From assembly GCA_905235995.1 (NCBI GenBank), contig CAJONI010000041.1, positions 1 to 34,694 of the forward strand: a stretch of 34,694 nt of DNA, written 5' to 3'. Every line of letters begins with the position of its first letter. Within the stretch, counting starts at the first letter, position 1. The stretch is from an uncultured Bacteroidales bacterium (lineage in GTDB: Bacteria; Bacteroidota; Bacteroidia; Bacteroidales; UBA932). The notes under the pieces were generated by a model. That model saw only the letters and a program-made list of their open reading frames with translations. It was not told the DNA's origin and searched no databases. The translations under genes and the position numbers were made by a program. Below, piece after piece: positions 18,808 to 33,472 of this stretch.

Positions 18808-18880
<73 letters not shown>

Positions 18881-33130: not shown

Positions 33131-33433
33131 GCCTTGGTGGTGGAATGGTAGACACGAGGGACTTAGATACATTTGAGTGCACTCTCTGAAATAGAGGGAT
33201 GTAGAATGCCGTAAATTCAAGGAAACCTTAACGGGAAAGGCCGATGGCAACCTTGAGCCAAGCCTTCGGAAGAAGGAAGGTGCAGAGACTAGACACGGCA
33301 CACCTAAAAAGTCATAGGACTTCATGGTGAAGGAATAGTCCGGACTACAAACAGCGATGGTGGCGAAAGCCATAGTGGTAAGAAAATCCCTTGGCCCGAA
33401 GGGGCCGTGCGGGTTCGAGTCCCGCCCGAGGCA
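33131..33433 (+). tRNA. tRNA-Leu (anticodon TAA) interrupted by a group I intron
   Basis: Exon 1 is 33131-33164 and exon 2 is 33383-33433, joining to an 85-base class II tRNA. Acceptor GCCTTGG pairs with CCGAGGC (one G-T pair), the D stem is GTG/CAC, and the anticodon stem AGGGA/TCCCT encloses CTTAAAA once spliced, giving anticodon TAA. There is a long variable arm (GGCCC-GAAG-GGGCC) and a T arm GCGGG-TTCGAGT-CCCGC; discriminator A is at 33433. The intron splits the anticodon after its first base. CCA is not encoded. No -7 box is seen between the preceding terminator and the tRNA. Confidence 0.95.
33165..33382 (+). ncRNA. Group I intron (IC3-like) in tRNA-Leu(UAA)
   Basis: This 218-nt intron follows an exon ending in T and ends in G, as group I introns do. 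Its core matches what I recall of the cyanobacterial tRNA-Leu intron: TTGAG near the 5' end as internal guide (GAGT pairs with ACTT of exon 1, with a G-T pair at the splice site). P4 is TCAAGG (33217-33222) with CCTTGA (33251-33256). The conserved Q-like string CCTTGAGCCAAGCC and R-like string GTGCAGAGACTAGAC are present, and P7 is GACTA (33287-33291) with TAGTC (33336-33340). Hairpins CTTC-GGAA-GAAG (P6a), AAGTC-ATAG-GACTT (P8 region) and TGGC-GAAA-GCCA (P9, 33361-33372) complete it. It holds no ORF, so no homing endonuclease. Confidence 0.93.
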
Positions 33434-33472
33434 CAGGAAAGGCCGCGCAAAAGCGCGGCCTTTCCTGTGCCT
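33429..33472 (+). repeat. 20-bp perfect inverted repeat overlapping the tRNA-Leu 3' end
   Basis: Bases 33429-33448 and 33453-33472 are perfect complements with an AAAA loop. The left arm starts inside the tRNA acceptor strand (last five bases AGGCA). No T run follows on either strand, but it is the only hairpin between the convergent tRNA-Leu and phosphoesterase genes and probably stops or trims both transcripts. Confidence 0.75.

Follow-up and report, generated by a model that had tools for sequence, protein, structure and literature searches.

A group I intron of 218 nt splits the anticodon of the tRNA-Leu(UAA) gene near the end of the window (the whole stretch of 34,694 nt analysed, from contig CAJONI010000041.1 of an uncultured Bacteroidales bacterium). 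It is predicted to be a self-splicing intron from a lineage that is mobile by HNH homing, with phages as its likely carriers, and the copy in the window would have lost its endonuclease. The probability of this reading as a whole is put at roughly 0.87. The intron is a real feature of this genome and very probably functional.

The intron and its tRNA gene

A cmscan search of the whole window against Rfam returned two matches, namely a tRNA-Gly at 18808 and Intron_gpI (RF00028) at 33155-33358, the latter scoring 51.8 bits (E 1.6e-10), barely over the gathering score of 50. The covariance-model search that had been proposed in a preliminary description of this DNA thus confirmed its identification of the 218-nt insert as a group I intron. 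The interrupted gene was not detected by ARAGORN in the unjoined window, where tRNA-Gly was the sole report. When positions 33131-33164 and 33383-33434 were joined, the program returned an 86-base tRNA-Leu(taa) starting at 33131 with all arms present, as expected from the earlier claim that the exons form a clean tRNA-Leu. The splice sites given there (33164/33383) were likewise recovered, whereas the 3′ end of the tRNA has to be moved from 33433 to 33434.

On the + strand, the 5′ exon (33131-33164) ends with U34 and the 3′ exon (33383-33434) begins with A35, and the insertion point in the anticodon loop of the joined tRNA is CUU|AAAA. The intron itself (33165-33382) is preceded by U at 33164 and has G at 33382 as its last base; these splice sites are also supported by the uninterrupted allele of relatives. 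The G+C content of the insert is 47.2%, compared with 59.4% for the window, and no ORF was found in this copy. The insert can be described as a compact, IC3-like group I ribozyme, the subgroup name being one that we presume from its likeness to other tRNA introns that share its core string.

Directly after the tRNA, a long G+C-rich inverted repeat was noticed by eye at 33431-33470, which is absent from the terminator-scan list. Around the 3′ end of the tRNA (33383-33434 and the 3′ flanks of relatives), near-identical genomes diverge in the sequence that follows, and the ends of several contigs fall within or shortly after the intron. The tRNA end may be an integration site or a repeat.

Ribozyme fold and covariation

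The predicted fold of the 303-nt precursor was better than those of 100 out of 100 shuffled sequences (z -4.17), and that of the intron alone better than 200 out of 200 (z -3.04). Helices assigned as P1-P5, P6a, P8 and P9 were present in the minimum-energy fold of the precursor, to which P7, a pseudoknot, was added by hand. For the analysis of covariation, 38 introns were tried, two of which were duplicates (L316 was left out on this ground), and the final alignment held 36 distinct introns, including 31 from Bacteroidales, four from IMG/VR contigs and one from a 735-kb phage. The group I helices were drawn on the window copy and pairs were then counted over the alignment. Standard pairs occupied 96.2% of 1978 cells, a share biased in favour of the structure because it was drawn from one of the aligned sequences. 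Changes on both sides were found in 28 of 55 core pairs, with a shuffled mean of 13.4, while slid controls had 29.6-40.5% of cells paired and no more than 12 pairs with both-side changes. For the group I core helices (P3, P4, P6, P7 and P8), covariation was above both the shuffled and the slid controls, although P6, like most pairs of P7 and P8, is invariant and therefore uninformative in this respect. Judged from these alignments, the fold is under selection.

All helices lie on the + strand. The internal guide sequence (33172-33178) contains GAGU, which pairs with ACUU of the 5′ exon to form P1 with a U-G pair at the splice site; UUGAG is invariant across the aligned introns and the U-G pair is present in 36/36, in agreement with the G-U pair noted in P1 beforehand. 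At the splice site, none of the three pairs varies, and the inner P1 extension of the energy fold is not conserved, its last pair being found in 6/36. It is conceivable that UUU before GAGU pairs with AAA of the 3′ exon as P10. P2 (33179-33202) shows both-side changes in 7/9 pairs, and P3 (5′ strand 33207-33212, partner 33295-33300) in 6/6, the window having C-G at one P3 pair where 27/36 introns have U-A. The P4-P5 domain occupies 33217-33256, with P4 formed by 33217-33222 and 33251-33256 (both-side changes in 3/6 pairs of P4 and 1/2 of P5). Next to it is P6-P6a (33257-33281), in which P6 is invariant and 4/5 pairs of P6a changed on both sides. The guanosine-binding helix P7 (5′ strand GACUA at 33287-33291, partner 33336-33340) is paired in 36/36, with a both-side change at one pair in one sequence. 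P8 (stem-loop 33301-33329, pairing 33301-33304 with 33326-33329) is also paired in 36/36 and has one pair with a both-side change. For P9-P9a (33345-33378), both-side changes were counted in 2/4 and 3/4 pairs, and P9 contains a U-G wobble specific to the window (1/36).

Predicted splicing and the need for the tRNA

From the intron anatomy and established group I chemistry, a splicing pathway can be proposed in which the ribozyme folds within the transcript and exogenous guanosine held in P7 attacks after U34. The released 5′ exon would then attack after the terminal G, and ligation of the exons would yield mature tRNA-Leu(UAA).

UUA codons are rare but used, with 11 among 10,650 codons, in 8 of the 26 genes of the window. 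No other tRNA-Leu(UAA) was found by ARAGORN among the 46 tRNA matches of the genome, of which the assembly is 88% complete, so that a second gene could be missing from it. Since UUA is used and no other such tRNA was found, the tRNA-Leu(UAA) of the window most likely must be spliced. Two of the 46 matches, which are weak or truncated (L160, L166), gave no ARAGORN call. According to the passage available, tRNAscan-SE is not designed for self-splicing introns (PMC8450103). As ARAGORN also misses the gene in the window, genomes can seem to be without tRNA-Leu(UAA).

Distribution among bacteria and phages

Within the genus of the window, 10 of 40 genomes have the intron (nine by an exact core pattern and G003 by a looser one); the exact uninterrupted site is present in 25, the two forms occur together in none, and five have neither. 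The search of related genomes suggested beforehand therefore did recover the same intron. Matches to RF00028 were obtained in 13 of 100 relatives, in eight of them above the cut-off; the flanks identify 11 of these 13 as tRNA-Leu introns (L011 being cut by a contig end), including three, L009, L010 and L011, that score below the cut-off. L012, from a genome of the same genus (G020; 37.3 bits), was rejected as a tRNA-Leu intron and taken for a different one because, by eye, it is flanked by sequence resembling 23S rRNA, and L013 (G044; 27.7 bits) was dropped as unlike any tRNA intron.

Across the family, the core was matched in 62 of 398 genomes and 4 of 25 genera, and 31 of the 62 loci were fetched and read. 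An under-reported bacterial clade of this intron, one of the origins considered in the preliminary description, is borne out. Among 395 genomes sampled from the phylum, the core was found in none but the window's own, using an exact pattern by which diverged copies can be missed. In GTDB contigs, at least 119 stretches match the core; among the matches listed, 76/119 sit at the tRNA-Leu(UAA) site, with Alphaproteobacteria, Acidobacteria and Binatota represented, and 23 of the 25 Bacteroidota stretches do so, the other two being cut by contig ends. L280, a Bacteroidota stretch at this site, comes from a lake, and the L208 intron lies in a Candidatus Cryptobacteroides genome. IMG/VR contributed 108 stretches matching the core, 91 of them at the tRNA-Leu(UAA) anticodon site, including five introns of 537-756 nt. 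Sites were assigned by a heuristic combining exon strings with a stem match of at least 4/5 pairs, on which these counts rest because the ARAGORN intron-mode calls were unusable: 35 phage loci were labelled tRNA-Tyr(ata), and 17 phage and 22 genome loci yielded nothing usable. The site had been described beforehand as that of cyanobacterial and plastid introns, which is correct but incomplete, as it is also used in the three bacterial groups named above and in phages. Among the papers listed by open-literature searches, no title or opening of an abstract dealt with group I introns in tRNA genes of Bacteroidales, an absence that carries little weight with subscription journals mostly outside their scope.

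HNH endonuclease genes in related introns

The introns at 54 Bacteroidales loci (duplicates included) comprise 34 short ones, three of intermediate length, five cut by contig ends and 12 longer than 600 nt (607-734) that carry an HNH motif, the frameshifted L208 included. The L231 intron measures 234 nt. Thus the earlier statement that there is no endonuclease ORF, the component expected of a homing group I intron, holds for the window copy but not for its lineage. Full HNH ORFs of 183-214 aa were read in six relatives. By eye, they sit in the P1 loop and run in frame into the ribozyme core, four of the six with their stop at the UAG that is conserved in the P7 3′ strand, and a stem of the GUUCUU/AAGAGC type closes the loop in 8 of 10 armed introns inspected. 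All seven proteins scanned, four of them from Bacteroidales, matched PF01844 or PF13392 at E 0.001 or better, the Pfam match of the L009 protein being only below the curated cut-off; the L183 protein matched phrog_10822 at 5.4e-46. Comparison of L183 with L308, the only non-identical pair with dS below 1.5, gave dN 0.071 and dS 1.295. These values suggest purifying selection on the HNH ORFs, which would point to gain of the intron.

The ORF of L208 is frameshifted, those of L192 and L232 are shortened, and the closing stem is kept (by eye) in some short introns such as L196, L307, L322 and L001, a pattern consistent with armed introns decaying into disarmed ones. Most likely, the window copy descends from an armed intron and has lost the endonuclease. 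On the intron tree, ORF state requires 8 changes over 44 scored rows (shuffled mean about 11.4; so low a number was reached in 5 to 7 of 500 shuffles), and only one change is forced by branches with good support. Given this slight clustering and the single forced change, repeated loss of the ORF in the lineage is suggested only.

Presence of the intron on the host tree

A host tree was built from type III glutamine synthetase, which was obtained from 24 of 30 chosen genomes, and genomes with the intron and with an empty site stand side by side on it. The nine intron genomes need nine changes, eight of which are forced by well supported branches, against a shuffled mean of 7.5. Simple vertical ancestry, left open in the preliminary description, fits poorly with this unclustered presence. 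The closest contrast is between G033, which has the intron, and G036, which does not. Their glutamine synthetases are near-identical, and for 1.4 kb upstream of the tRNA every 100-nt segment shows 98-100% identity; the intron differs at the site, and downstream only about the first 100 nt are shared (95%). Six genome pairs were compared at the locus, and G033/G036 is the only one with a near-identical upstream region; upstream identity is 65-94% for G039/G018 and 82-94% for G006/G021, and the three other pairs are more distant or non-collinear. Patchy presence of this kind can equally stem from losses. Taken with the other evidence, the intron looks like a mobile element of the tRNA-Leu gene rather than an old inheritance.

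Phage relatives and intron trees

A tree of 220 unique cores was built from 269 loci (seven without a usable core were dropped, leaving 262 cores), and a 67-row tree was made from a sample of these cores plus the 735-kb phage. In the larger tree, the introns of the family make up a single clade (support 1.0) with a long stem and adjoin phage tRNA-Leu introns with weak support (0.17, 0.56). In the 67-row tree, the Bacteroidales clade of 14 rows (100/99.9) has the phage introns L077 and L027 as its sister (94/92), followed by the 735-kb phage (89/87). The seven cyanobacterial tRNA-Leu introns group with cyanobacterial fMet introns in the 220-row tree and fall with L014-type phage introns in the 67-row tree. 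The lake copy L280 is outside the family clade in both trees. Overall, the tie of the Bacteroidales introns to phage introns receives moderate support from these cores.

A search of IMG/VR with an HNH alignment found at least 570 viral relatives, of which 80 were kept. Four of the best five of these genes (L350, L351, L352 and L354, but not L353) lie in tRNA-Leu(UAA) introns of 727-781 nt. This figure comes from reading the best five and from ARAGORN, and the other 75 stand on a string test that proved too strict, by which the 80 were divided into two of P1 type, eight with the core and the HNH gene elsewhere, 65 with neither sign and five partial. RF00028 misses several phage introns that have clear exons and core strings, with no match in the record of L351 and one below the threshold near L354; with loose settings, too, L347, L348 and the introns of Lak megaphages gave none. 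Because the closest armed relatives found outside the family are in phage tRNA-Leu genes, phages are likely to be the carriers between hosts.

The 101-kb record containing L352 is crAss-like, judged by a gene unlinked to its introns. TAG reads as a sense codon in an 18-kb stretch of it, and its tmRNA end matches cr272_1 (Crassvirales) at 87%. The flank match to crAss-like phages overlaps the intron and HNH gene and is thus not independent; the independent evidence is an unlinked ORF of 581 aa, far from the introns, with 10 phage matches, eight of them listed: Dulem virus 42, a Bohxovirus and crAss-like cr phages. PHROG matches were weak or absent for two of the three large ORFs of this record, one being to a virion protein. 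Crassvirales are stated to infect Bacteroidetes in the passage available (PMC10136315). Beside the tRNA-Leu intron of this record, a second group I intron was observed at L352 239-485, near or in the tmRNA gene. The cultured cyanophage S-CAM4 has an uninterrupted tRNA-Leu-TAA gene, both exon halves of which are 89% identical to IMG/VR type L014, so that polymorphism for the intron seems to be present in phages too.

Proposed homing route and competing explanations

In the armed relatives, the HNH endonuclease encoded in the P1 loop most likely acts on the anticodon region of uninterrupted tRNA-Leu genes, by a cut or a nick, and repair there would copy the intron into the gene. Phages would carry the intron between hosts, the step from phage to host being inferred. 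Inheritance from the ancestor of the family, followed by repeated precise removal, is an unlikely alternative to this route. The family introns do form a single strongly supported clade, and precise loss via a reverse-transcribed tRNA is conceivable; nevertheless, nine changes for nine intron genomes are no fewer than with shuffled labels, the core was matched in only four of 25 genera in the family and, among the phylum sample, in no genome besides the window's own (0 of 394), and the apparent purifying selection on the HNH ORFs points to gain. Transfer of the classical cyanobacterial tRNA-Leu intron, as a direct copy, is still less probable. The insertion site is the same, and a joint clade of Bacteroidales and cyanobacterial tRNA-Leu introns was not rejected by the AU test (p-AU 0.151), yet the cyanobacterial copies fall elsewhere in both trees and the Bacteroidales ones adjoin other phage introns. 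The cyanobacterium-like donor of the preliminary description is hence disfavoured by the nearest relatives, which are phage tRNA-Leu introns, without being rejected by this test.

It is very improbable that the insert is only intron-like, having lost splicing and left the tRNA a pseudogene. The window-specific wobble in P9 would fit such decay, but the core pairs are intact and covarying, the exons form a perfect tRNA, and no replacement tRNA-Leu(UAA) was found in the genome. Hardly credible is an artefact of assembly or binning, or contamination by a phage or another bacterium. The genome is admittedly a draft in 78 contigs, the contig of the window ends 1.3 kb downstream, and in several relatives no more than a few hundred bases separate the match from the end of its contig. 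Against this, the core recurs in the 62 family genomes, half of whose loci were read, and in 24 named records with Bacteroidales titles, one being titled only Bacterium, while the glutamine synthetase on the same contig is 83-86% identical to that of 13 genomes of the same genus. Contamination, including the cyanobacterial kind raised beforehand, is unlikely since same-family genomes from several projects have the intron. The preferred reading thus remains a mobile, phage-carried lineage with a disarmed copy in the window.

Comparison with known systems

The seven cyanobacterial tRNA-Leu introns share with the window the gene, the U34/A35 site and the layout of the ribozyme. They differ in belonging to another core clade in both trees and in their match lengths of 205-268 nt, which leave no room for an ORF, whereas the Bacteroidales introns are patchy and partly HNH-armed. 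The Azoarcus-type tRNA-Ile(CAU) introns of Betaproteobacteria and the tRNA-Arg(CCU) introns of Methylobacterium have nearly the core string of the window and are found by the same pattern, but they interrupt other tRNAs and are inserted after the third anticodon base. ARAGORN labels the Betaproteobacterial tRNA as tRNA-Met(cat); its identity as tRNA-Ile and the name Azoarcus are our assumption. Thiomargarita and Beggiatoa, which are Gammaproteobacteria, also need to be considered. Putative group I introns have been reported in their tRNA-Leu(TAA) genes, the gene interrupted in the window and again outside Cyanobacteria, their type and structure being left undetermined in the part of the source available (PMC4853749). 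I-PfoP3I (PMC3428280) and the tRNA-fMet endonuclease (PMC3984707) are, from the excerpts at hand, group I intron-borne homing endonucleases like those of the armed relatives, but of other genes or sites, while here a phrog_10822-like HNH protein is encoded in the P1 loop of tRNA-Leu introns.

The ribozyme class and the site were already known, and the HNH-armed lineage in tRNA-Leu genes of Bacteroidales and phages seems to be new. A review of 2014 stated, in the passage available, that every phage group I intron observed until then was in a protein-coding gene, although phages have many tRNA genes (PMC3984707). By contrast, 91 of the 108 core-matching IMG/VR stretches sit at the tRNA-Leu(UAA) anticodon site. 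A wider proposal falls slightly short of even odds: this anticodon may be a homing site common to bacteria and phages, with HNH-armed introns shuttling between phages and Bacteroidales and the Lak gene hit twice. If so, a translation gene of host or phage would have been repeatedly colonised, disarmed and emptied, with crAss-like, jumbo and other phages as carriers. Near-identical genomes with and without the intron, together with armed, damaged and disarmed copies, make this a tractable system for tests of homing between host and phage.

Lak megaphages, phages of a Bacteroidales genus, also have introns in tRNA genes; these were termed enigmatic, and phage tRNA introns were unreported to the authors' knowledge, in passages that name neither group I introns nor tRNA-Leu (PMC6784885). 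The tRNA-Leu(UAA) genes of the Prevotella phages Lak-B1 (L344, 846-1517) and Lak-C1 (L345, 855-1517) apparently contain two introns each, of 309 and 308 nt in the D-loop and of 348 and 340 nt at the anticodon; the three exons joined give tRNA-Leu(taa), and the lack of an RF00028 match is mildly against this two-intron reading. A 595-kb phage (L348, LR756511.1) has a tRNA-Leu intron of 700 nt in which an HNH gene of the same family is apparently located in the P6 loop rather than in P1. At L063, L072 and L098, the phage HNH reading frame continues, by eye, across a partial intron core and on into more coding sequence, a tRNA 3′ exon being absent, and the core there may have turned protein-coding.

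The 39 archaeal group I introns of a 2018 survey were all placed in rRNA, according to the part of that survey available (PMC6125680). The tRNA-Asn genes of two Pacearchaeota records are apparently split by a group I intron, at L168 1943-2170 (RF00028, 83.1 bits) and near L279 5688, the latter with no match over the cut-off but with a core string and an HNH-like ORF seen by eye.
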